Below, in pieces: positions 3,574-37,912 of a stretch of 64,000 nt of DNA; positions within the stretch are counted from its first letter, which is position 1; each line of letters begins with the position of its first letter. Source of the stretch: Marinomonas pollencensis (lineage in GTDB: Bacteria; Pseudomonadota; Gammaproteobacteria; Pseudomonadales; Marinomonadaceae); NCBI RefSeq assembly GCF_003387375.1, contig NZ_QUNG01000011.1, positions 1-64,000 of the forward strand, written 5' to 3'. The notes below the pieces were generated by a model that was not told where the DNA came from, did no database searches, and was given only the letters and a program-made list of their open reading frames with translations. A program made the translations under genes and the position numbers.

Positions 3574-4548
3574 TTACCGATCGCCTTTAAATTGAACCAG
3601 TACTGCAATTAGGATCACGAGGCCTTTCACCATGCCTTGCAAATAGGGTGAGATACCCATCAGGTTCAGCATGTTATTGATGATGCCTAAGATGATGACG
3701 CCAATGACCGTTCCCCAAATGGTGCCTTTTCCTCCCGATAAGGCAGTACCACCAATTACCACAGCGGCGATGGCATCGAGCTCATAAAAAATCCCCGCAT
3801 CACTTGGGCTAATGGAATTCAAACGAGAGGTTAATAAAACCGCCGCAATACCCACTGAAGCACCGGCAATAACAAAGGTTTGAAAATAAACCCAGCGGAC
3901 TTTTATCGCAGAATAAGATGCAACTTTTGGATTTGAACCAATAGCGCAAACATGGCGACCAAAAGCACTGTGTTTTAACAAAATATGATACACAGCAGCT
4001 AATAATAGAAAGACCCAAACAGGGTAGGGAATCCCCCATAAATAACCGCCGCCAATGTCAGAGAAATGAGCGTTTGTAGAGACCATTTCTCCTGCATCAC
4101 TGATGTATAAAGCCATCGAACGGAAGATAGACATGGTGGCAAGAGTGGCGATAAACGAGGCCACTTTGCCTCGGGTAATAATCAATCCATTTAAGGCACC
4201 AAAAACGCCCCCTAATGCAATTGCAGAAGACACGGCCATCGCTACCGCCCACCACCCATCTCCGGCACCATTGATGATCATGATGGTAAGTACTCCAACC
4301 ACCGCGACCATAGAGCCAACGGATAAATCAATGCCGCCAGCAATAATCACAAAGGTCATGCCAAGCGCGATGATGCCGGTGTAGGACACTTGTCTTAGCA
4401 CGTTGGTAATATTGCGCGGCATTAAAAAAGTGTCGCTCGCAATCGATGAGAAAATTACGAGCAAAAGCAAGGCGATAAAAGGGGCGTATGCCGCCATGTT
4501 TAATCGTCTTAAACGGGTCATCATAGGAGCAGGTTCGAGTTTTGCCAT
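3574..4548 (-). CDS. Ribose-type ABC importer permease
   Basis: The 324-residue inner-membrane protein of the BPD_transp_2 (RbsC-like) family has eight to ten hydrophobic segments. It carries GMTFVIIAGGIDLSVGSM, the family hallmark, and ALSGGKGTIWGTVIGV near the C-terminus. A single permease gene suggests a homodimeric channel. The start has AAGGA nine bases upstream. It sits 52 bp after the ATPase gene and 63 bp before the binding-protein gene, consistent with one transcript. Confidence 0.9.
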   Translation of the reverse strand: MAKLEPAPMMTRLRRLNMAAYAPFIALLLLVIFSSIASDTFLMPRNITNVLRQVSYTGIIALGMTFVIIAGGIDLSVGSMVAVVGVLTIMIINGAGDGWWAVAMAVSSAIALGGVFGALNGLIITRGKVASFIATLATMSIFRSMALYISDAGEMVSTNAHFSDIGGGYLWGIPYPVWVFLLLAAVYHILLKHSAFGRHVCAIGSNPKVASYSAIKVRWVYFQTFVIAGASVGIAAVLLTSRLNSISPSDAGIFYELDAIAAVVIGGTALSGGKGTIWGTVIGVIILGIINNMLNLMGISPYLQGMVKGLVILIAVLVQFKGDR

Positions 4549-4600
4549 AGTAAATCCTTGAATCTTTTTATTGTTATGTTTAAGTCGCTTGGGTTGTGTC

Positions 4601-6100
4601 TCAAGCTTGCTTCATGGTTTTTAATCCAGCTGCGTAATACATGATTTCTTTTTCATTGATGGCATCGCCAATTAATTCACCCATAATCTCACCAGAGCGC
4701 ATCACTATGACCCGATGGGATAAGCCCATAATTTCCTCTAATTCAGAGGAAATGACGATAACGGAGACACCTTGTTCTGTTAGAGAATGAATAAAGTGGT
4801 AGATTTCCTTTTTGGTGTTTACGTCAATGCCACGGGTCGGTTCGTCGAGAATGAGAATGTTCGGGTGGGTGTCCATCCATTTGGATAAATACACTTTTTG
4901 CTGATTACCGCCGCTAAGATTAATCAGATTGGTGTGTAAAGATGCGGCTTTAATATCAAAGCGTTTGACGTACTCTTGAGCAACTGCGTTTTCTTTTTTC
5001 TGTCGAATCAGCCCTTTAACATAGGCTGCCAAGGAAATTAGCGTGATGTTCTTCGGAATATCAGAATTCATGATCAAGCCTTTGCCTTGGCGATCTTCTG
5101 ATAAGTAGGCCAAGTGATAAGACAAAGCATCTGCAATCGAGTTAATCGTGGCGTATTGGCCGTTTATTTCGATTTCTCCCGCGTCCTTTTTGCGCAGCCC
5201 CATTACGGCTTCTGCGGTTTCGGTACGGCCCGCACCTATTAAGCCAGCAAAGCCCAATACTTCGCCTTTTTTAAGTTCAAAATTAATGTCGTTTAACACG
5301 CCTTTAATGGCCAAATGACTGACTTTTAGCACCACGTGATCGCTCGGCTCACGACGTGACGGATAAATCTGATTTAACTCTCGACCAACCATTTTTCTGG
5401 CCATGTCTTGTTCATTTATTTCTGACACATCGTCTAGGCTGACCAAATACCCATCGCGCAGGATTGCGAGTCTGTCACACAATAGCTTCACTTCTTTAAG
5501 CTTATGAGAGATGAAAATAAGAGTAACGCCCCGCTGTTTGAGGGTGTCGACCAAGCTAAAAAAGATCTCCACTTCATGGTCGGTCAATACCGTTGTTGGC
5601 TCGTCCATTATTAAGATACGTGAGTCGTTCACTAATGCTTTGGCGATTTCCACCATCTGCTTTTCAGCAACACTGAGGTTTTCCACCAGAGCGTCTGGGC
5701 TTAATTCGGTTGCCAATTCGGTTAACAAGCGAGCCGCTTTCTCGCGCATGGCGGCTTTATCCAGCAATAGGCCTTTTTTGACTTCATTACCGAGAAAAAT
5801 ATTTTCAAACACGTTAAGGGTGCTGATCAGATTGAACTCTTGTGGAATCATCGCGATGCCTAAACGTTTTGCATCGGAGGTCGAGCGGATCTCCACGAGT
5901 TTGCCATCTATCTTAATTTGGCCACTTGTTAGTGGGTAAATGCCGCTAATAATTTTGAGTAATGTCGATTTTCCAGCGCCATTTTCACCTAGTACACCTA
6001 GTACTTCACCCGCGTGAATGTCCAAGTTGATATTATGCAGCACGCGTACGCCTGAGAATTCTTTAACTATGTTTTGCACTTGCATGATAGGGGGCGTCAT
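4601..6100 (-). CDS. Ribose-type ABC importer ATPase with two nucleotide-binding domains
   Basis: At 499 residues it has the RbsA/MglA-like tandem layout. The first domain has Walker A GENGAGKSTLLK, signature LSVAEKQMVEIAKAL and Walker B ILIMDEPT. The second has the degenerate Walker A FAGLIGAGRTE usual for this family, signature LSGGNQQKVYLSKW and Walker B LILDEPTRGID. The start at 6100 has AGGAG upstream, lying within the end of the preceding dehydrogenase gene (3 bp gap), so translation is probably coupled. It energises the permease at 3574. Confidence 0.92.
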   Translation of the reverse strand: MTPPIMQVQNIVKEFSGVRVLHNINLDIHAGEVLGVLGENGAGKSTLLKIISGIYPLTSGQIKIDGKLVEIRSTSDAKRLGIAMIPQEFNLISTLNVFENIFLGNEVKKGLLLDKAAMREKAARLLTELATELSPDALVENLSVAEKQMVEIAKALVNDSRILIMDEPTTVLTDHEVEIFFSLVDTLKQRGVTLIFISHKLKEVKLLCDRLAILRDGYLVSLDDVSEINEQDMARKMVGRELNQIYPSRREPSDHVVLKVSHLAIKGVLNDINFELKKGEVLGFAGLIGAGRTETAEAVMGLRKKDAGEIEINGQYATINSIADALSYHLAYLSEDRQGKGLIMNSDIPKNITLISLAAYVKGLIRQKKENAVAQEYVKRFDIKAASLHTNLINLSGGNQQKVYLSKWMDTHPNILILDEPTRGIDVNTKKEIYHFIHSLTEQGVSVIVISSELEEIMGLSHRVIVMRSGEIMGELIGDAINEKEIMYYAAGLKTMKQA

Positions 6101-25402: not shown

Positions 25403-26581
25403 GTGGAAAAGGTAGATGTGGTAATAATCGGCGCTGGTGCATCCGGTTTGATGTGCGCGGCAACGGCGGCTTACCGTGGTAGAAAGGTAGTCGTGTTGGA
25501 TCATGCGAATAAAGCCGGTAAAAAAATCCTGATGTCGGGGGGTGGCCGCTGTAACTTTACTAACATGGATGCGGCACCAAAACACTTCTTGTCTGACAAT
25601 CCACACTTCTGTATTTCAGCGTTGCGTCGTTATTCACCACAAGATTTTGTTGATTTAGTTGATCGCCATGGGCTGGATTACGTAGAGAAAACACCGGGTC
25701 AACTTTTCTGTGAGCACTCAGCAAAGGACTTACTTGAAATCTTACTCACCGAGCTCGAATGGTCTGGTGCAAGATTACAATTAAACAGCAAAATCCATGC
25801 TATTGATTATCAAGCAGAGCAAACTGTGATCAACACTAATCAAGGTGACTTTTGTTGTGACTCTTTAGTGGTGGCAACCGGTGGATTATCGATTCCAACC
25901 ATGGGGGCAAGTGGTTTTGGTTATGAAATTGCGAAACAAGTAGGGCATGATATTTTGCCAACGCGGGCAAGCTTAGTACCGATCACTGTGCAGCCAGATC
26001 GTAAGGCACAACTGGCTGAGCTATCTGGCATTGCTTGTGACATTGTTGCCAGCGCAAACGGCACCAGCTTTCAAGAGCCGATGCTATTTACTCACCGTGG
26101 TGTCAGCGGACCTTCTATTTTACAAATCACCAATTTTTGGCAGCCCGGAGAAGAGCTGACAATTAATTTGGCCCCAGAGTTAACGCTTGAAAGCCTACAG
26201 GCAATCCGTCAAAACACGCCAAAGAAAAGCTTTGAAGGTGTGTTGTCAAATCAGCTACCAAAGCGCTTAGTGGAACTGATTAAAGGGCAGTTTCCTTGGT
26301 TAAACGAGCGCAGTGCCCAAACCTCCAATGAGCAAATCGAAAGCTTACATGCTTATCTCTCGCGTTTTGACATCGCTCCTAATGGCACCGAAGGTTATCG
26401 CACTGCAGAAGTGACCTTGGGTGGCGTCAACACCAATGAAGTGTCCTCTAAAACCTTTGAATCCAGTAAGCAAAAAGGCCTGTATTTTATTGGTGAAGTA
26501 CTTGATGTAACCGGCTGGTTAGGTGGATATAACTTCCAATGGGCATGGGCCAGCGGCTTTTGTGCAGGACAACATGTGTAG
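25403..26581 (+). CDS. yhiN: YhiN/HI0933-family NAD(P)/FAD-dependent oxidoreductase
   Basis: A 392-residue flavoprotein. N-terminal FAD motif VVIIGAGASGLMCA, followed by GKKILMSGGGRCNFTN, a signature of the HI0933 family, then FTHRGVSGPSILQ, VTLGGV and the C-terminal GEVLDVTGWLGGYNFQWAWASG. The role in most bacteria is unclear. Its start GTG at 25403 has AGAGG upstream. The left end of a Tn7-like element abuts or overlaps its stop codon; I recall yhiN being reported as an attachment gene for one Tn7-like lineage, which would explain the position. Confidence 0.92.
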   Translation: MEKVDVVIIGAGASGLMCAATAAYRGRKVVVLDHANKAGKKILMSGGGRCNFTNMDAAPKHFLSDNPHFCISALRRYSPQDFVDLVDRHGLDYVEKTPGQLFCEHSAKDLLEILLTELEWSGARLQLNSKIHAIDYQAEQTVINTNQGDFCCDSLVVATGGLSIPTMGASGFGYEIAKQVGHDILPTRASLVPITVQPDRKAQLAELSGIACDIVASANGTSFQEPMLFTHRGVSGPSILQITNFWQPGEELTINLAPELTLESLQAIRQNTPKKSFEGVLSNQLPKRLVELIKGQFPWLNERSAQTSNEQIESLHAYLSRFDIAPNGTEGYRTAEVTLGGVNTNEVSSKTFESSKQKGLYFIGEVLDVTGWLGGYNFQWAWASGFCAGQHV

Positions 26582-28480: not shown

Positions 28481-29947
28481 ATGGCAAAGCCTTCGAAGAA
28501 GGAAAAAAGAAAGCAGAAATCAAAAATAAAAGCTAAGGCTGCTCGTCGTGCAGTGCACGATAGGAATAGTGAAAGAAAATTAGCAGAGAACATTCTTAGA
28601 TTTGGAAAGAAACTTACCCGAAGACAGTTTGATGCATATTGTTACTGCCGAATGCCCTTAGTACGTTTTAGCGCAGAGGAGATCGAATGGTACTCGCTTT
28701 TTGATAATAAGCTTCTAGGGATCGTGATTAGAGATGTTACAGATAACGATTATGGATTCATCGTTCTAGGTAGGGATTCAAGAAGATTATTTCGTTGCCT
28801 CGAAGTTAGTAGAGAGTTTCATGATACTCCAGAAAAGGCACGAAAAGATCTAGCTAGGAAGATTTTTCAAGACTATTTAGGAAAGGCTCAGGATATATAT
28901 CCACAAGGCGACGAAACTGATGCAGGATTTGATCTATTTGCAGATGTTATTCCTGAAAATGAGCAGCATCATGGCTACAGAATACTTAAGAATGAACCTC
29001 GATTTGAGGCGGCTAGGAATATCGTATCTGAAATCGTAAATTCGTTTGTTGATAATGATGGGCATTTTGAGCGAGAATTTCAGTCAGTAAATTTCCAAGC
29101 TAGATTATGGGAATTGTATTTACACATATACATTCATAACGCAGGCTTAATGGTAGAAAACAATCACCCAGCACCTGATTTTGAAGTTTCTTTCTTTGGA
29201 GAAAAAATATTCATTGAGGCCGTGACAGTCAACCCTTCTGAGAATGCAAATCGTCCTGATTTACCTCCTCCTCAGACACATGAAGAAATTGAGGAGAGAT
29301 TAAACGATTTTATGCCTATCAAGTTTGGAAGTCCCCTATTCAGTAAGCTGAAAAAAAAGTACTGGGAAAAAGAGCATGTCTCGGGAAAGCCAATTATTTT
29401 AGCAATTCATGACTATCACAACGATAATGCGATGACGTGGTCACGAACAGCTTTGTCAGAATATTTGTATGGGATAAGAACACGTATTGTCGATGGGAAG
29501 CCCTCCGTAGAGGATATAGAAAAACATAGTTGGGAAGGAAAAGAAATACCTTCTGGATTCTTCTTCCAAGATGAAGCTGAAAATGTGAGCGCAGTGCTTT
29601 TTAGCAATCAAGCAACAATTCCAAAGTTTAATCGCATGGGGAAAATAGCTGGATTGGGCAGTGCTGATGTCAAGATGATTAGGAATGGATTCTTATATAA
29701 TCCAGATCCAGAAGCTATTCATCCTATCCCATTTACTAAAGATTTAGATGATCCTGATTATGAAGAATCATGGTCAGACGGGCTAATAATGTTTCATAAC
29801 CCAAATGCGAAAAATCCTGTAGATCCAGATGTATTCTCTGATATTAGTCATGTATTCTACTCGAAAGAAGAAGGCTTCTATGGATATCATCAGCCTTACG
29901 ATGTTCTTGGTTCAATCACAGTAGTGGTTACAGAGGCCAAAGAATGA
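28481..29947 (+). CDS. Cassette-encoded large protein of unknown function, possible nuclease fold
   Basis: A 488-residue protein with a very basic N-terminus (KPSKKEKRKQKSKIKAKAARR) suggesting nucleic-acid binding. A central stretch, RLWELYLHIYIHN followed by APDFEVSFFGEKIFIEAV, resembles the E...PD...ExK pattern of PD-(D/E)xK nucleases, though Val replaces the expected Lys. I know no family for it. The ATG at 28481 follows AAAGGA. At nearly 1.5 kb it is large for an integron cassette. It is followed by the beginning of a second attC. Confidence 0.6.
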   Translation: MAKPSKKEKRKQKSKIKAKAARRAVHDRNSERKLAENILRFGKKLTRRQFDAYCYCRMPLVRFSAEEIEWYSLFDNKLLGIVIRDVTDNDYGFIVLGRDSRRLFRCLEVSREFHDTPEKARKDLARKIFQDYLGKAQDIYPQGDETDAGFDLFADVIPENEQHHGYRILKNEPRFEAARNIVSEIVNSFVDNDGHFEREFQSVNFQARLWELYLHIYIHNAGLMVENNHPAPDFEVSFFGEKIFIEAVTVNPSENANRPDLPPPQTHEEIEERLNDFMPIKFGSPLFSKLKKKYWEKEHVSGKPIILAIHDYHNDNAMTWSRTALSEYLYGIRTRIVDGKPSVEDIEKHSWEGKEIPSGFFFQDEAENVSAVLFSNQATIPKFNRMGKIAGLGSADVKMIRNGFLYNPDPEAIHPIPFTKDLDDPDYEESWSDGLIMFHNPNAKNPVDPDVFSDISHVFYSKEEGFYGYHQPYDVLGSITVVVTEAKE

Positions 29948-30274: not shown

Positions 30275-30291
30275 ATTGGGTTTTGCGCATT

Positions 30292-30738
30292 ATGAAGGTC
30301 ATGTATCTTGGCTCTGCTGAATCGGCCGATTTTATTTCAATCAATAAGTTAAACATTCCGCTCTATGTTGAGTCGGTGTCGGCGGGGTTTCCGTCCCCAG
30401 CCCAAGACTTTGTGGAGCGTACGTTGGACTTGAACGAGCTGTGCATTCAGCACCCGAGTGCTACCTTCTTTGTTCGTGCTCAAGGGGATTCAATGGTTGA
30501 AGCGGGGATTCACTCAGGAGATATCTTGGTGGTGGATCGATCGTTAACGGCTCGCCATGAGGACATTGTGATAGCGTGCCTGCATGGTGAAATGACAGTT
30601 AAAACCCTTGAATTAAAACCTCATGTCTTGCTTCGTCCGAAAAACAAAGCTTATCGTCCCATTCTGATAACAGAAGACTCTCAGCTGGAGATTTTCGGTG
30701 TGGTGACTGGGGGTGTCCGTAAACTTGGGCGTGGCTAA
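30292..30738 (+). CDS. umuD: UmuD-like translesion polymerase accessory protein
   Basis: A 148-residue peptidase S24 protein; UmuD is normally about 140. The pieces are the cleavage-site region VESVSAGFPSPAQDF (cut after AG), the nucleophile in RAQGDSMVEAGI, the general-base lysine in GEMTVKTLEL, and RPKNKAYRPI. RecA-stimulated self-cleavage would yield UmuD'. An upstream in-frame TTG at 30283 is less likely than the ATG at 30292. The normal partner umuC is reduced to a relic just downstream, so this UmuD has no partner in the window. Confidence 0.92.
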   Translation: MKVMYLGSAESADFISINKLNIPLYVESVSAGFPSPAQDFVERTLDLNELCIQHPSATFFVRAQGDSMVEAGIHSGDILVVDRSLTARHEDIVIACLHGEMTVKTLELKPHVLLRPKNKAYRPILITEDSQLEIFGVVTGGVRKLGRG

Positions 30739-31266: not shown

Positions 31267-32082
31267 ATGAGACAAGTTAATCAAAATAAACGCTACGCAG
31301 AACATCACGAATCATTCGTAAATTTAGAGATCCCCTATATTCCTATGATTCGTACAATGGACTTTACTCGGTCGTCTGGTAATCGATCTAAAGTTCCTCA
31401 TTTCAGTGACTCTGATCGCTTGATTCATTTTATGTCTGTCAATGAACGATGGGCTTTTCTTCAGATACTTTACAACTACGATGTGATTGATGTCTATGAA
31501 CAATGGGCTATCGACCTCGAAAGTTCGATGTTGATATGCCAAGAGCTGAACATCAAGCATCCTAGAATCCCTAGGGAGTCAGGCTGGGCTTATCAAACCT
31601 TTGATTTATTGATGAAGCTAGATGCCTCTAACGACGACCTTTGTGAAGAAGATGTTAAGTGGCTTGCAATAGCGGTGAAATCAAGTCACCACGCCTCGAA
31701 TAAACGTGTAATCGATAAACTCTTAATTCAAGAAGCTTACGCTCACATGAAAGGGTATGAATTTTGTCTGATTACAGATGATGAAATTCGGAATGTATAC
31801 AGTGAAACATTAGACACTTTGTATTTTCACTACCAACTACGCCCCTCGACAGAAATTTACTACGACACTTGGTTGAGCACTTTTCGTGGTGAGCTTTTGT
31901 TCAACTCAGATATGCGCTTAGGGAAACTCATCAAGGCTGTGGCATCCAGTGTTGGTATCGAAGATGAAATGTCCGCTCATTTCTTTTGCCACGCTCTATG
32001 GTGCAAAGATTTTACGATGGACTGGGAGCAACGCCTTCGGTATGAGCGAAGTGCTGAGTCTCTAGGGGTGATGCCACTATGA
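31267..32082 (+). CDS. tnsA: TnsA-like endonuclease of a Tn7-like transposon
   Basis: 271 residues, against 273 for Tn7 TnsA. The catalytic triad can be placed: E60 in SVNERWAFLQIL, D113 in GWAYQTFDLLM and K138 in WLAIAVKSS, close to the spacing of E63, D114 and K132 in Tn7. The N-terminal nuclease domain is followed by a winged-helix-like region (NKRVIDKLLIQEAYAHMKGYEFCLITDDEI). TnsA makes the 5'-strand cuts that allow cut-and-paste transposition. The stop overlaps the next ATG (ATGA), the usual coupling of tnsA and tnsB. Confidence 0.82.
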   Translation: MRQVNQNKRYAEHHESFVNLEIPYIPMIRTMDFTRSSGNRSKVPHFSDSDRLIHFMSVNERWAFLQILYNYDVIDVYEQWAIDLESSMLICQELNIKHPRIPRESGWAYQTFDLLMKLDASNDDLCEEDVKWLAIAVKSSHHASNKRVIDKLLIQEAYAHMKGYEFCLITDDEIRNVYSETLDTLYFHYQLRPSTEIYYDTWLSTFRGELLFNSDMRLGKLIKAVASSVGIEDEMSAHFFCHALWCKDFTMDWEQRLRYERSAESLGVMPL

Positions 32083-32840
32083 ATAATAGCACGTTGGCTG
32101 CTCAAAACTTCGGCTCTCTCCCTATTGAAGTATGCGATCCTTTCAACAAGTTTGAAGTCATAAAATTGAAAGAAAGTAATTACGGCGAGGTTGATCCTGT
32201 AGTGATCGGTGCTACTGAAATACTAGCAGACTCACTTATCGTTCATATTGATCATGATCGGGGGGTGGCTTTTTTAATGAATATTCGTACTAAGCCTAAG
32301 AGACCAAAAAAAGTCGCGATCACTGATTTAAATGAAGCAATTCAAAGTAAAGAGGTCATCCGAGTACGTAGTTTTAAGAGAAGCCGAAAGGTTCACTTAG
32401 ATGATTTGAGTGACAGGGAGTTGCAGTTGGCTAGAGAGCGATTCGCCATCATTGAGTCGATTGGTGACCTGCATGAATTCTTTGGTAATAACTATGGGAA
32501 AGAGATTATTACTGGTGTTGCTGAAGATCATGATTACTCGAAAACGCATGTATACAACATACTTTGGACTTATTTATACAATGAGTGTAGTTATGCTTCG
32601 CTAGGGAAAGGACTTGGTGACGCTGCCACCCGTATCCCCAAGAAAGAACGTAACATTACAAAGCCACTGGGTAGGAAGAGTAATAAAGAGAAGCGGCTAG
32701 GTGTGGCTACTCGTAAAATGCTTATGCCGGAGGATTTTGAGAACCTTGATAGTGGTCGTCAGGTTTCATCTACATTTGACCTAACAGGGTTGCCTGAGGT
32801 AGCTGGCCCAATTCAAAAATATTGCGGCGCATTCAAATAA
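32079..32840 (+). pseudogene. tnsB: Truncated tnsB, N-terminal third only
   Basis: 253 residues, against about 700 for TnsB. It contains the N-terminal DNA-binding part: LSDRELQLARERFAIIESIGD, then a helix-turn-helix-like GVAEDHDYSKTHVYNILWTYL and ECSYASLGKGLGD, as in TnsB. The DDE catalytic domain is absent. The last ~30 residues (from about DSGRQVSSTF) do not read like TnsB and may mark a deletion junction; the candidate retron RNA begins 10 bp after the stop. Alternatively it is a repurposed end-binding protein, since it could still bind the repeats at both ends. Confidence 0.72.
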
Positions 32841-32849
32841 AAGTTCGCT

Positions 32850-33036
32850 ATTTGCGAATTTGGTTGACAGGTGGTGCGCCAATAACTAAGATTTACAGCG
32901 TAGTTTTAAAAGAGAGATTTCGCCAATAAATTGGTTTATGTACGCATAAATCGAGGGGGAAACCCTACCTACTTCACGTGTCTGTTACGCATACTCACTG
33001 TATCGCCTGACAATACATGCTGAAAAATTCGCAAAT
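32850..33036 (+). ncRNA. Candidate retron msr-msd RNA
   Basis: ATTTGCGAATTT (32850-32861) and AAATTCGCAAAT (33025-33036) are perfect 12 bp complements 163 bp apart, as expected for the a1/a2 stem of a retron RNA. Inside are small hairpins (CCAAT-AA-ATTGG; TTTATG-TACG-CATAAA) and an imperfect longer one around ATAC-TCACT-GTAT (near 32985-33015). It lies upstream of, and in the same direction as, the reverse transcriptase gene. The branching guanosine and exact msd cannot be assigned by eye. Confidence 0.55.
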
Positions 33037-33056
33037 TTTGACGAGTCAAATTTGCG
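33030..33056 (+). promoter_or_regulatory. Hairpin competing with the retron a1/a2 stem
   Basis: CGCAAATTT and AAATTTGCG pair around a short loop. The left arm overlaps the proposed a2 segment (33025-33036), so a2 can pair either with a1 or with this arm. This would be an either/or switch in the retron leader. Confidence 0.5.
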
Positions 33057-33087
33057 TGAAACCGGGGGCATTGTTTTGATTACTCTC

Positions 33088-33161
33088 AGCTCTTTTGAAG
33101 GCGAGATCCACATCGAAAAGCAACAATTCAGTTGTTTGGGTTATGTGGATTCACTGGAGCT
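33088..33161 (+). promoter_or_regulatory. Long nested hairpin ahead of the retron small gene
   Basis: Three nested complementary pairs: AGCTC (33088) with GAGCT (33157), ATCCACAT (33106) with ATGTGGAT (33143), and AACAA with TTGTT around TTCAG (33122-33136). It ends at the ribosome site GGAG of the small gene at 33167, so it could be part of the retron RNA or control translation of that gene. Confidence 0.55.
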
Positions 33162-33166
33162 AAAAA

Positions 33167-33316
33167 ATGCAAGAGAAAACAGACTACGATCAAAAAACTG
33201 AAGTTGGAGAGAAAGGTAAGAAAAAGAAGACGATTTGGAAGTGGACTTGGATAGTGGTGCGAATTGCTGACTGGGTATGCCGACTTATTGCCTATTTTGA
33301 AGATCTTGATGGATAG
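33167..33316 (+). CDS. 49-residue basic-hydrophobic protein in the retron operon
   Basis: ATG at 33167 with GGAG seven bases upstream. The product has a charged head (MQEKTDYDQKTEVGEKGKKKKT), then a Trp-rich hydrophobic or amphipathic segment (WKWTWIVVRIADWVCRLIAY) and an acidic tail (FEDLDG). One short membrane-seeking helix with a Lys cluster is the build of many small membrane toxins. It lies between the retron RNA and the XRE/RT genes in the same orientation, 40 bp from the next gene, so I infer a retron component, possibly the effector. I know no homologue. Confidence 0.6.
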   Translation: MQEKTDYDQKTEVGEKGKKKKTIWKWTWIVVRIADWVCRLIAYFEDLDG

Positions 33317-33356
33317 CTGATGTTCCCCCTTGTTTCAAAAATTCAGGAGAGTATAA

Positions 33357-33668
33357 ATGATGTCTAAAGCTTTAAAACTCATCAGACAATACAATGAAGT
33401 TAAACAGGCTGATTTGGCTAATGCATTAGGTATTTCAAAGTCTTATTTATCTGAGATTGAGTCAGGTAAGAAAAATATTAGTCTAGATCTTCTGGAAAAG
33501 TACGCTCAGTACTTTGACGTGCCATTGTCATCTTTGGTATTTTTTTCTGAGAACTTATCAAAAAAAGGGAAAATTTCAGAAAAATTTAGAAGTTTAGTTG
33601 CTGATAAAATTCTGAAAGTCATGGAGTGGACAATTAACAGTGATAAAGAAGAAAAAGTCCAAGCTTAA
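33357..33668 (+). CDS. XRE-family helix-turn-helix protein of the retron
   Basis: 103 residues. The HTH_XRE domain occupies about 8-62: LIRQYNEVKQADLANALGISKSYLSEIESGKKNISLDLLEKYAQYFDVPLSSL. The C-terminal 40 residues are charged and helical (KISEKFRSLVADKILKVMEW). AGGAGAG lies five bases before the ATG. It overlaps the RT gene by 29 bp. From memory, one class of retrons (type VI in the Mestre scheme) pairs the RT with such a protein; it may repress the operon or act as the antitoxin of a small effector. Confidence 0.85.
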   Translation: MMSKALKLIRQYNEVKQADLANALGISKSYLSEIESGKKNISLDLLEKYAQYFDVPLSSLVFFSENLSKKGKISEKFRSLVADKILKVMEWTINSDKEEKVQA

Positions 33669-34602
33669 AATTCGTACTAATGGAAAAATTTACCGGCTTC
33701 AGGACTCACCATTTTACAAGCTCACTTCAAAAAAACGTTTCGCTAGTTTATTAAATTTAGAGTATGACCAACTCAAACAGCTTTTATCAAATTCAGATTC
33801 TAAATTTGAAAAGTTTACTCAAGTGAAAGAGGGTAAGAAGCCTAGAGCAATTCAAAAGCCTATCACTAGTTTTGCCCCATTACATTGCCGAATAGCCAGT
33901 CTTCTATGCAGGATAGGCACGCCGGAATACTTGCACTCGGGTAAGAAAGGCAGATCTAATTTATCTAATGCTCAAAGTCATTCAGGTAAGCATAAGTTAC
34001 TTGCTGTTGATATTGAGTCTTTTTTTGAGTCAACTAGTCATGAAAAGGTATACAGCTTTTTTAGAGGTCATTTGAAATGTTCTTCAGACATTGCAGATGC
34101 ACTATGTAAACTTTGCCTCTGTGATAGTCATATTCCGACGGGAAGCCAACTGAGCATGCCTTTGGCATACTGGGCTAATTCAAATATGTTTAACGAACTA
34201 GACATGCTAGCGACTAAGCACAGAGTTAAAATGTCTGTTTATGTTGATGATGTCGTTTTTTCGGGTGAGCAGCTCAATAAACTTTTTTTATCAACGGTAA
34301 AAAAGATTTGTGCTAGATATGGAATGACTGTGCACCCAGATAAAATCAGACTATACAATAAAGAGCAGCCTAAAGTTGTCACTGGAGTTGCAATTATCGG
34401 TGGCGAACTTAAGGTTGATCATAAGCAGCATAAACTCTTGGAAAATGACCTTAAGCTTTGGAATGCGTGCAAGGAAGATCCAATCGCATCAGATCTGTCT
34501 TTACCTAGAAAAATTAGCGGTAGATTAAGTGCAATGGGATCAGTTGAAAAAGAATATTTAGATCGGGCACGAAGTTTCAGGAAAAAAAATTCCATCCGTT
34601 AG
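33640..34602 (+). CDS. Retron reverse transcriptase
   Basis: 320 residues, the usual size. Retron hallmarks are all visible: NAQSH at 110-114 (NAxxH motif), LAVDIESFF at 121-129 (RT motif with catalytic Asp), IPTGSQLSMPLAYWAN at 165-180, YVDDVVFSG at 201-209 (catalytic YxDD), and KVVTGVAI around 246-252 (VTG motif that recognises the retron RNA). The start is a GTG inside the XRE gene, implying translational coupling. It should prime msDNA synthesis from the branch G of the RNA encoded upstream. Confidence 0.93.
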   Translation: MIKKKKSKLKIRTNGKIYRLQDSPFYKLTSKKRFASLLNLEYDQLKQLLSNSDSKFEKFTQVKEGKKPRAIQKPITSFAPLHCRIASLLCRIGTPEYLHSGKKGRSNLSNAQSHSGKHKLLAVDIESFFESTSHEKVYSFFRGHLKCSSDIADALCKLCLCDSHIPTGSQLSMPLAYWANSNMFNELDMLATKHRVKMSVYVDDVVFSGEQLNKLFLSTVKKICARYGMTVHPDKIRLYNKEQPKVVTGVAIIGGELKVDHKQHKLLENDLKLWNACKEDPIASDLSLPRKISGRLSAMGSVEKEYLDRARSFRKKNSIR

Positions 34603-35191: not shown

Positions 35192-35578
35192 GCTTTCAAC
35201 AGCTATCCTAGTGAAATAAAGTAAAAAACAAGAATAGGCATGAAATAAAAATTGTTTTTTTCATTTGTCTATGTATTATCTAATGAACGATTAATATTAA
35301 ATTAATTTAATAACTATCTATTTAGTATTTAGATTAAATGTAAATAAATATTCTGCATTGTTTGGGTGCGAAAATATTAAGTTTTATTTTTTTTAGTGGT
35401 TTTTATATTGATCGTGTTGTTTTTTTTTTAAAACTAAGGTTATTTAAGTTGTTGTTTTTATTGGATTTATTTTTCTATTTTGAAGTGTTTGTTTGTTTGT
35501 TGAATTTATTGGTGCGCTAATTTGGTTTTATGATCATAAATGGTGCTTAGCCTAGTCTTAATCATATGGCAGGATAGA

Positions 35579-37912
35579 ATGACTTATATATTTAGACCAG
35601 AAGAAAATGTAGATGATTTTGATAAGGTCTACTACCCGGGTTTCAACTTCTCTAAAGAAACTCAAATAAAAGAGCTTCATTACCGTGAGGTCTGTTCTCT
35701 TGAGTTATCAGAAGGTGATCTCATTAAGCTGACAAATTCAGATGGCGGCAGCTCTGTTCTTTTGTTTGCCGTAGGAGAAGAGGGTGAGGACGCTGGTTCG
35801 CTACTTTCGACGCAGACGCTTCCAGCGGTCAAGTTAGATGAACAAGTTTCTATTTCAGCCGAATACCTGAGCTTTCTAGCATCAAAGCATAGCCATTTAC
35901 AGAACATTTGCTGTCGCTCGGTGTTTGATAAAGCAACACTAGCGCAAGAAAACTACCTGATCCGCAGCCAAGGTAAGCTAACTCTATGGCTGGCTTTCCC
36001 CGTGCCGGTTGATGCGATAGAGCAAGGAGGAGGTGGCACTGTTCACATAGAGCATACTCGCAAGAATCAGACTGATGAATACCCATTGCCTAAACCATTA
36101 GGTGAGATTGTTCAAGAGTTCAGAGTCGCGAGCGGCACAGCTCAAGCTTATCAAGTAAAGGCTGGCGAATACATTCAGGTGATTGATATAGAAGGGCGTC
36201 AGTGCTCTGATTTTATGGCCATGTCCCAAGCAGCATTAAAGCAAGGTAAAGAGCGCTATATTGACTCCACTGTGACACGAACCATGGTCGGCAGAGCGTA
36301 TCCAGCTCCCGGTTTGTACGACAAATTTTTTGATCAAGATATGCAGCCTTTGTTAGCCGTTGTTCAAGACACAGTGGGTAGACATGACACCTTTGCTTTA
36401 GCTTGTACGGCAAGAGGTTATGAAGAACGTGGTTTTCCGGGTCACCTTAATTGCTCTGATAATATTTCTCGTGCCTATGAGCCGTATGGCATCCAACCTC
36501 GCCAAGCGTGGCCTGCAATTAACTTTTTCTTTAACTCCACCATAGATCCACACACCAATCACCTATCTAGCAATGAGGCATGGTCACGGCCTGGAGATTA
36601 TGTGGTGATGAAGGCGTTACAAGATCTAGTCTGTGTTAGCACAGCGTGCCCAGATGATATTGACGCGATCAATGGTTGGAATCCAACGGATCTACAAGTT
36701 CGTGTGTACAGCAAAGACAGCAATATTCCCAAAGCGATCGCCCATCGCCCATTTACAGAGAGTGAATACAATATGACGATTGAAAGTGCTTTTCATCCTC
36801 GAACCAGTGCGCTAACACAATCCTTTTCTGTGGCGCGAGACCTTTGGCTGCCGACTCACTATGAAGCGACGAGCGCCATCGAAGAGTACTGGGCATGCAG
36901 CCAGAGAGTCACTATCCAAGACATGTCGTCGTTACGCAAGTACGACATCATGGGGCCGGACGCAGAAACCCTTTTACAGCTAGCGATGACTCGTGACGTG
37001 AGTAAATTGTCCACGAACCGCGGTTTTTATTCCTTGATGTGCAGTGAAACAGGCACTGTTATTGATGACGGAACATTGTTTCATATGGGGCCCCATTTGT
37101 ATCGCTGGTGCTGTGGGTCAGAGGAAAGTGGTCGTCAACTGAAAAGCATCGCAGAAGAGAATAACCTGAAAGTATGGATCAAATCTCTTTGGTCCGCGAT
37201 GCCGAATCTTGCCATTCAAGGACCTAAAAGTCGCGAGTTATTAGCCAAACTGCTTTTTGTTCAGCCAACACAACCTTTGCTTGAAAACGTCAAATGGTTT
37301 GGTTTCACCATTGGTCGCTTGTATGACCGAAATGGGCCTTTATTCATGCTGACAAGGTCGGGCTTCACCGGAGAACTTGGCTACGAAATTTTTTGTGATA
37401 AAGAAGCTGCTTTGCCGATTTGGGACGCAATCATGAAAGAAGGCGAAGCCTTTGGCATTACCCCTATGGGAGGGGAGGCCCTGAACATCAAGCGTATTGA
37501 AGCGGGATTAATGGTCGCCGCTAATGAATTTCCACCGACCGTTGATGCGTTTGAAGCAGGTCTTGGTTTCGCAGTTGACCTTAAGAAAAAGCACTTTGTT
37601 GGACGAGAAGCCTTAGTTCGTCACTCAGAAGCACCCAAAGTCCAATTAGTGGGGCTGCATCTTGAAGGCAGTGAAGTCCCTCATCATGGTGCGCCTATTT
37701 TTTATGGCCGTAATCAAGTCGGTGTGATCACCAGTGCGGTGCGATCACCAGAGCTGGACAAAGTTATTGCGCTTGCACGTGTGGCGGTCGAATACAAAGA
37801 ACTAGGCACCGCCTTAGAAGTGGGTTGCTTAGACGGCCACATGAAGCGTCAAGTCGCCAGTGTTTGCTCAATCCCTTTTATCGACCCTAAGCGCGAAAGA
37901 GCACGAGCTTAA
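35579..37912 (+). CDS. DUF1989 - aminomethyltransferase (GcvT-like) fusion protein
   Basis: 777 residues from the ATG at 35579 (AGGA four bases upstream); the frame opens 39 bp earlier. The first ~400 residues carry DUF1989 features (IDIEGRQCSDFMAM, AYPAPGLYDKFF, HLNCSDNISRAYEPYG, with conserved Cys). The C-terminal ~370 are a folate-binding GcvT fold (SLRKYDIMGPDAETLL, RGFYSLMCSETGTVIDDGTLF, TRSGFTGELGYEIF, EAGLGFAVDLKKKHFVGREAL). GcvT-type enzymes move a methyl or aminomethyl group to tetrahydrofolate. With the betaine-type importer downstream, demethylation of an imported methylated amine or sulfonium osmolyte is likely; the substrate is not shown. Confidence 0.85.
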   Translation: MTYIFRPEENVDDFDKVYYPGFNFSKETQIKELHYREVCSLELSEGDLIKLTNSDGGSSVLLFAVGEEGEDAGSLLSTQTLPAVKLDEQVSISAEYLSFLASKHSHLQNICCRSVFDKATLAQENYLIRSQGKLTLWLAFPVPVDAIEQGGGGTVHIEHTRKNQTDEYPLPKPLGEIVQEFRVASGTAQAYQVKAGEYIQVIDIEGRQCSDFMAMSQAALKQGKERYIDSTVTRTMVGRAYPAPGLYDKFFDQDMQPLLAVVQDTVGRHDTFALACTARGYEERGFPGHLNCSDNISRAYEPYGIQPRQAWPAINFFFNSTIDPHTNHLSSNEAWSRPGDYVVMKALQDLVCVSTACPDDIDAINGWNPTDLQVRVYSKDSNIPKAIAHRPFTESEYNMTIESAFHPRTSALTQSFSVARDLWLPTHYEATSAIEEYWACSQRVTIQDMSSLRKYDIMGPDAETLLQLAMTRDVSKLSTNRGFYSLMCSETGTVIDDGTLFHMGPHLYRWCCGSEESGRQLKSIAEENNLKVWIKSLWSAMPNLAIQGPKSRELLAKLLFVQPTQPLLENVKWFGFTIGRLYDRNGPLFMLTRSGFTGELGYEIFCDKEAALPIWDAIMKEGEAFGITPMGGEALNIKRIEAGLMVAANEFPPTVDAFEAGLGFAVDLKKKHFVGREALVRHSEAPKVQLVGLHLEGSEVPHHGAPIFYGRNQVGVITSAVRSPELDKVIALARVAVEYKELGTALEVGCLDGHMKRQVASVCSIPFIDPKRERARA

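Follow-up and report, generated by a model that had tools for sequence, protein, structure and literature searches.

Phage-borne pairs of a helix-turn-helix (HTH) gene and a reverse transcriptase (RT) gene have been tied, with reference to Mestre 2020, to type VI retrons carrying 'small auxiliary proteins' (PMC8541194, in its available part). According to the same part, the HTH gene overlaps the RT gene in Shewanella phage MuM16-1, Klebsiella phage ST147-VIM1phi7.1, and Escherichia virus P2_2H1, and a short protein is encoded upstream of the HTH gene in the latter two, which the authors likened to MuM16-1_p31. The MuM16-1 record gives p31 as an 855-nt coding sequence on the minus strand and does not list the 48-codon frame found in this phage in the present analysis. 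A Retron VI system is also mentioned for one strain of Vibrio europaeus (PMC13249269, in its available part). The class itself (Mestre et al. 2020) is known here at second hand, through the PADLOC models and PMC8541194. The locus described below lies on contig NZ_QUNG01000011.1 of Marinomonas pollencensis, in a stretch of 64,000 nucleotides that was analysed as a whole and is called the window. It is a type VI retron, with a 49-codon gene placed between the non-coding RNA (ncRNA) and the HTH and RT genes. In the reading put forward here, at a rough probability of 0.47, this gene would encode the toxic effector, and the retron's own RNA and reverse-transcribed DNA (RT-DNA) are predicted to open a hairpin that likely buries its Shine-Dalgarno (SD) sequence.

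The assignment to type VI was made because the PADLOC models name the RT as RT_VI and its neighbour as HTH_VI; the second-best family for the RT is RT_III-A (5.8e-43). The RT clade, the adjoining cognate HTH gene, and an ncRNA with an a1/a2 stem, msr hairpins and an msd hairpin were all found. An earlier note on this DNA had seen a retron-type RT coupled to an XRE protein, which the models bear out, and the RT motifs NAQSH (residues 110–114), YVDD (201–204) and VTG (247–249) are present. On the + strand the order is a palindrome and promoter-like site, the ncRNA, the 49-codon gene, the HTH gene and the RT gene, with the end of the HTH gene (33668) overlapping the start of the RT gene (33640). 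The features of the transcript are as follows.

32910..32917, + strand: a1 (AAGAGAGA), 5' strand of the ncRNA stem
32916..32924, + strand: element M (GATTTCGCC), in msr, complementary to B
32933..32968, + strand: two msr hairpins, from the fold and aligned in relatives
33030..33056, + strand: msd hairpin, whose loop TGACGAGTC (33039–33047) is element D
33082..33087, + strand: a2 (ACTCTC), 3' strand of the ncRNA stem
33088..33161, + strand: hairpin burying the SD sequence of the small gene, AGCTC (33088–33092) with GAGCT (33157–33161), upper stem 33105–33113 with 33143–33151
33100..33108, + strand: element B (GGCGAGATC), inner-loop segment of the SD hairpin that extends by four bases, its last ones, into the upper stem
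33156..33159, + strand: SD sequence GGAG, 7 nt before the ATG
33167..33316, + strand: gene of the 49-residue small protein, the likely effector; evidence on the gene comes from position, SD sequence, selection tests and the helix in an AlphaFold2 (AF2) model
33357..33668, + strand: XRE/Cro-type HTH protein (PADLOC HTH_VI, 2.7e-37)
33640..34602, + strand: retron RT (PADLOC RT_VI, 4.6e-92)

The leader RNA and the hairpin over the start site

The leader was compared across relatives drawn from genome contigs (the best 80 of 94 retained), viral contigs (35 loci) and a class-level set (11 of 369 genomes). Records with a match numbered 24 for phages, 156 for plasmids and 351 for E. coli, of which 3, 4 and 4 were retrieved. 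From these, 97 loci with an RT score of 200 or more and an upstream stretch of 500 nt or more were analysed, redundant copies being kept and the window counted twice (as W and L001). An HTH_VI-like open reading frame (ORF) adjoins the RT gene in 79 of them. Clustering at 80% RT identity gave 44 representatives, 40 HTH-bearing and 4 HTH-less. The covariation set of 40 lineages consists of the 44 clusters minus L041, L050 and L028 (poor alignment) and L029 (segment too short); L017 was retained, though the D hairpin chosen for it is probably wrong. A divergent subset holds the 28 lineages below 55% RT identity. M and B were anchored on alignment columns and D on the strongest hairpin, independently of any match among the three.

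In the aligned leaders the a1/a2 stem, the two msr hairpins and the msd hairpin are followed, directly after a2, by the SD-bearing hairpin. Three segments agree with one another: M, in msr just after a1, D, in the msd loop, and B, in the inner loop of the SD hairpin. Across the 40 lineages, covariation reached z 9.1 for a1:a2, 8.9 for M:B, 10.7 for D=B and 6.4 for M:D, beating all 10,000 permutations, and in the 28 divergent lineages it stood at 7.7, 7.5, 9.3 and 4.8, respectively, with a1:a2, M:B and D=B again above every one of the 10,000 permutations. The exchanges observed include UCGCC/GGCGA, UCACC/GGUGA, UCGCU/AGCGA and CCGUC/GACGG, as well as UCUCGU/ACGAGA, UCUCAC/GUGAGA and GUCGUC/GACGAC. 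In the window, M and B form 9 pairs (-15.3 kcal/mol), a score that none of 20,000 shuffles of M reached. The SD hairpin covaries too, with z 12.6 for the arms joining anti-SD to SD and 13.6 for the upper stem (10.7 and 11.3 in the divergent subset; controls -0.4 and -0.5), and it appears in the minimum free energy (MFE) fold of the window. Over 43 representatives the SD sequence of the small gene is more buried than in shuffles (accessibility 0.24 vs 0.40; lower in 35 of the 43).

Two other approaches to the leader were set aside. The repeat TTCGCTATTTGCGAA / CGCAAATTT was dropped as a1/a2, its first copy adjoining the promoter across relatives and the GAGAG/CTCTC pair covarying instead. A search for M without anchors, spanning 140 nt, was weak (own best partner in 2 of 42; permutation p 0.024), since random duplexes at other places compete, and the anchored test is the one relied on. 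Rfam gave no match.

The following switch could be built from these elements. As RNA, D would mask M. Reverse transcription would remove the D RNA and produce a complementary DNA loop whose sequence resembles M; copying D would thus both unmask M and add an M-like DNA strand able to pair with B. Pairing of either M or RT-DNA with B would then open the SD hairpin and free the SD sequence, so that a candidate membrane-active peptide would be translated and abortive infection would follow, after a phage-induced change in RT-DNA. The geometry fits opening. Relatives such as L095 have 8 nt of B opposite a single nucleotide, and a duplex over B would there be expected to put strain on the SD stem; B of the window extends into the upper stem, so that the pairing would have to invade it. 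Moreover, since a hairpin already hides the SD sequence, opening is a simpler role than further locking for whatever pairs with the inner loop. Generalised, and held more tentatively than the reading for the window itself, the proposal is that type VI retrons and their HTH-less cousins may be translation switches operated by reverse transcription: the msd-loop RNA would mask a key strand in msr, the DNA copy would serve as a second key, and either would fit the lock segment of the hairpin hiding the SD sequence of the toxin. The retron DNA would then be a trans-acting riboregulator and not a protein-caging scaffold. The three-way match of M, D and B makes this idea directly testable by mutation and compensation.

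Several points weigh against this reading. The lineages are related, so the z values are too high, and the 28-lineage set gives the safer figures. The match of M, D and B was first seen by eye, and window sizes and anchors were set after the data had been seen; the D stretch was narrowed between runs after the wrong hairpin had been chosen in three cases (before narrowing, D=B z 10.3 and M:D 4.9). Two of 16 controls shifted by 12 or 24 nt reached p 0.04–0.05, all with |z| of at most 1.8. In pairing strength, 24 of the 63,980 16-mers in the window equal M as partners of B, and 8 of these 24 fall within the leader. The longest stretch common to D and B in the window is only 4 nucleotides (GACGAG vs GGCGAG), and the D=B match could have arisen secondarily, because M pairs with each of them or because a single protein recognises the motif at both places. 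The SD stem of the window is short (score 13.5 vs a permuted mean of 12.1), its inner loop sets about 11 nt against 4, and part of B is weakly paired in the MFE fold. The SD sequence of the window is no less accessible than in shuffles (0.36 vs 0.35), which makes computed accessibility unconvincing as proof of burial there, and the SD sequence of the HTH gene is equally buried (0.25 in 32 loci). Finally, the proposed direction of control, opening and not locking, is argued from geometry and logic.

The last point leaves room for the opposite sign, in which msDNA, through the M strand of msr or through the DNA loop, would pair with B and hold an RT-msDNA complex over the start, keeping the toxin off until phage damage to msDNA frees translation, in line with the toxin-antitoxin logic of retrons. 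The M:B and D=B covariation is compatible with either sign, and retron RT-DNA complexes have been described as sequestering the effector (PMC12548924 and PMC13275509, in their available parts). We nevertheless consider this arrangement rather doubtful: an extra repressor would be redundant where a hairpin with covarying stems already encloses the SD sequence, and pairing at B should strain that hairpin. Another possibility is that the GGCGA-like motif of D and B is the binding site of a single protein, the RT or the HTH protein, which would repress translation from the leader of the small gene. Protein recognition would also keep the motif alike in many lineages. It would not account for the complement M, which changes together with D and B across lineages (GGUGA/UCACC, AGCGA/UCGCU, GACGAC/GUCGUC); the co-change extends to the two HTH-less lineages of the test set, L031 and L033, and such a protein site appears improbable.

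The small gene with and without its HTH neighbour

No HTH_VI-like ORF was found within 1.5 kb in 18 of the 97 loci. In 15 of these 18, a small SD-bearing frame stands just before the RT gene or overlaps it, recognised by position and not by homology and counted without a shuffle control; one of the 15, the frame of L039, is probably spurious. A small frame at this place thus outlives the HTH gene, which makes the small protein the better effector candidate of the two. L030, L087 and L121 are both HTH-less and without the small frame. L030 (Endozoicomonas, 4000–5060) was rejected as a naturally HTH-less case: as its sequence reads, an insertion apparently cut the HTH gene beside an intact RT frame, and L087 gave the same ORFs.

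Loci L027–L029, L031–L034, L036 and L116–L118 belong to the same RT lineage and are HTH-less, with a small protein of 60–88 residues that carries a basic segment and is encoded before the RT gene or overlapping it. The leaders of L027, L028, L029, L031, L033 and L034 seem to carry an M/D/B-like motif, tested for L031 and L033 only. At two clostridial loci (L052, 4940–5957, and L054, 4943–5957), a protein of 73–75 residues with a clearly hydrophobic segment precedes the RT gene, and there is no HTH gene.

These loci bear on a further alternative, in which the small protein would be an accessory, such as an RT partner or a membrane anchor, and the effector would be the HTH protein or the product of an outside gene. 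The window protein matches no family in Pfam, NCBIfam, PADLOC or PHROGs, and the available part of PMC8541194 terms such proteins 'auxiliary'. The presence of a small frame in most HTH-less loci speaks against a mere accessory, as do an amphipathic, Trp-bearing helix and a start site placed in a hairpin with covarying stems adjoining the ncRNA; an accessory role has, in our estimate, a small chance of being the right one.

The build of the protein agrees in part with the small membrane toxin suggested by the earlier note. A Lys cluster and a Trp-bearing amphipathic helix (helical moment 0.53) are present. Net charge is only +1, and the best 19-residue Kyte-Doolittle mean, 1.14, is weak for a transmembrane helix, so the protein is not classed as a transmembrane toxin; a small peptide without a classical transmembrane helix also tells against the membrane-active effector proposed above. 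The 59 distinct family members have medians of 53 residues in length, +5 in net charge and 0.42 in helical moment; Trp occurs in 57 of them, and 15 reach the classical transmembrane score of 1.6. AF2 models the window protein as one helix (residues 6–47). Confidence is moderate, with a mean predicted local distance difference test (pLDDT) score of 72 and values of 55–58 over the first 20 residues. The effector had been called undescribed, which is accurate only in part: type VI small auxiliary proteins are mentioned in the available part of PMC8541194, and the version in a P2-like prophage (L093) corresponds to phrog_15287, of unknown function.

The frame at 33167–33316 is a real coding gene, conserved in place, as comparison of the related sequences indicates. 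The earlier note had placed a gene with a good ribosome site between the RNA and the HTH gene and had proposed a search for short frames upstream of the XRE gene in related loci. Such a frame, defined as an ATG-started ORF of 40–90 codons with an SD match of at least 4 nt, ending 10–60 nt before the HTH gene, was found in 39 of the 40 HTH-bearing representatives. Mononucleotide-shuffled leaders gave a mean of 1.1 and a maximum of 5 of 40 (200 rounds), and reverse-strand windows 19 of 742. A hidden Markov model (HMM) seeded with two sequences, the window protein and its 82% relative, detected homologues in 60 of the 79 HTH loci (redundant copies included), ending 30–54 nt before the HTH gene. 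By position, the frame is present in 78 of the 79, and L050, the 79th, has a frame of 60 residues. A homologue search with the 49-residue protein had returned only itself and the one 82% relative.

Substitutions, which the note had proposed to examine for a distribution as in non-coding DNA, are biased instead toward synonymous changes. In nine non-overlapping pairs read in frame, the proportion of synonymous differences (pS) is 0.34 and that of nonsynonymous differences (pN) 0.10, giving pN/pS 0.30 and purifying selection at p 1.4e-16; the other two frames of the same pairs show no bias (1.02 and 1.30). Single pairs with at least 5 changes range from 0.09 to 0.81 in the ratio of nonsynonymous to synonymous rates (dN/dS). 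Comparison of the window with Marinomonas fungiae gives dN/dS 0.33 in the small gene and 0.02 in the HTH gene, and the small protein is thus the faster evolving of the two. A chance ORF inside the leader, with its short length and the p of only 0.014 that the window and M. fungiae pair reaches by itself as points in its favour, is ruled out for practical purposes by 39 of 40 lineages against 1.1 expected and by selection confined to the reading frame.

The expectation that annotation pipelines would miss the gene holds for some records only. A 'hypothetical protein' is listed at its place in the four retrieved E. coli loci (in RefSeq), a Yersinia phage and a Serratia plasmid; no such entry stands in the Shewanella phage or in the Aeromonas and Citrobacter plasmid tables, of which the plasmid tables are incomplete.

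The HTH protein and the surroundings of the retron

Upstream of the ncRNA lie two further features.

32844..32858, no strand: perfect palindrome TTCGC-N5-GCGAA (TTCGCTATTTGCGAA), likely operator of the HTH protein
32864..32892, + strand: sigma-70-like promoter TTGACA-17-TAAGAT, the best of 5 sites, a site number equal to that in shuffles

The palindrome recurs in the promoter region of 28 of the 44 representatives, against a shuffled expectation of 0.02. All 28 are among the 40 HTH-bearing representatives, of which 12 are without it, and none of the 4 HTH-less ones has it. This restriction fits the HTH protein as a transcription regulator, and it looks like one acting through TTCGC-N5-GCGAA; in the proposed switch it would set transcription through this site. 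The earlier note had assigned control of the small protein to the XRE protein and msDNA. That assignment is modified here, since it is in the RNA that control elements were found, namely the SD hairpin and its segment matching msr and the msd loop.

The source genome holds one RT_VI match, and the closest relative of its RT is in M. fungiae (87–88% identity). In the genus Marinomonas there are six matches to the RT_VI model; four score only 158–180 bits and likely belong to other retron types, which leaves 2 of 48 genomes. At least 80% of the leader plus small gene of L095 is present in 98 of 5,426 complete E. coli genomes.

The retron is likely an anti-phage system. A strong PADLOC match to the defence protein PD-T7-1 (2.1e-168) lies at 28481–29947, together with a weaker match to PD-T7-5, and the retron therefore appears to sit within a small defence island. 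Housekeeping-like genes flank it (HI0933-like at 25403–26581; DUF1989/GCV_T at 35540–37912), and within the island lies a lone LexA/UmuD-like S24 peptidase gene (30283–30738). Directly 5' of the retron (31267–32840) are encoded a protein with a TnsA-like endonuclease N-terminal domain and then an overlapping 253-residue protein without family; the two are perhaps a Tn7-like remnant or carrier. No TnsB/C domain was found among the neighbouring proteins scanned around the retron. On plasmids, type VI retrons (L133, L134, L137, L138) adjoin addiction modules, Hok/Gef and AbiEii in Aeromonas and MazF and ParDE in Citrobacter and Serratia.

Comparison with described systems

The locus shares with type VI retrons the RT_VI and HTH_VI proteins with overlapping genes and the associated small proteins. 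It differs in the role proposed: the available part of PMC8541194 calls the small protein 'auxiliary' and says nothing of a switch in translation. The three phage retroelements named at the outset have RTs 44–46% identical to that of the window, and the same part of that paper draws no link to RNA structure. If the switch exists, it would explain both the type VI small 'auxiliary' protein and the conserved leader, and would provide a compact, re-addressable element coupling reverse transcription to protein output. Searches of titles and abstracts brought up no study of a retron effector controlled at the level of translation.

A 2025 bioRxiv preprint from the Shipman laboratory reportedly describes reverse-transcribed single-stranded DNA that derepresses translation of an antiviral retron protein. 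If it concerns type VI, the principle is known, and the present analysis contributes the covariation of the three segments across the lineage, together with the HTH-less cousins.

Type I toxin-antitoxin pairs, such as TisB/IstR-1 and Hok/Sok, offer a parallel in design: a short peptide, a translation start hidden in RNA, and control by a complementary strand. In the retron, the complementary strand would instead be msr RNA and RT-DNA arising from the same transcript, the DNA made by the RT. Reverse transcription during infection also yields a toxic product in DRT2 (PMC12039810, in its available part); DRT2 assembles a new gene, whereas the window gene is an ordinary one and the DNA would act as its regulator. 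Retron RT-DNA has been described within a complex that sequesters the effector (PMC12548924) and as an antitoxin (PMC13275509), in the available parts of both papers. RT-DNA serving as an antisense key for translation would, if the reading is true, be an immunity logic unlike either effector sequestration or antitoxin action.

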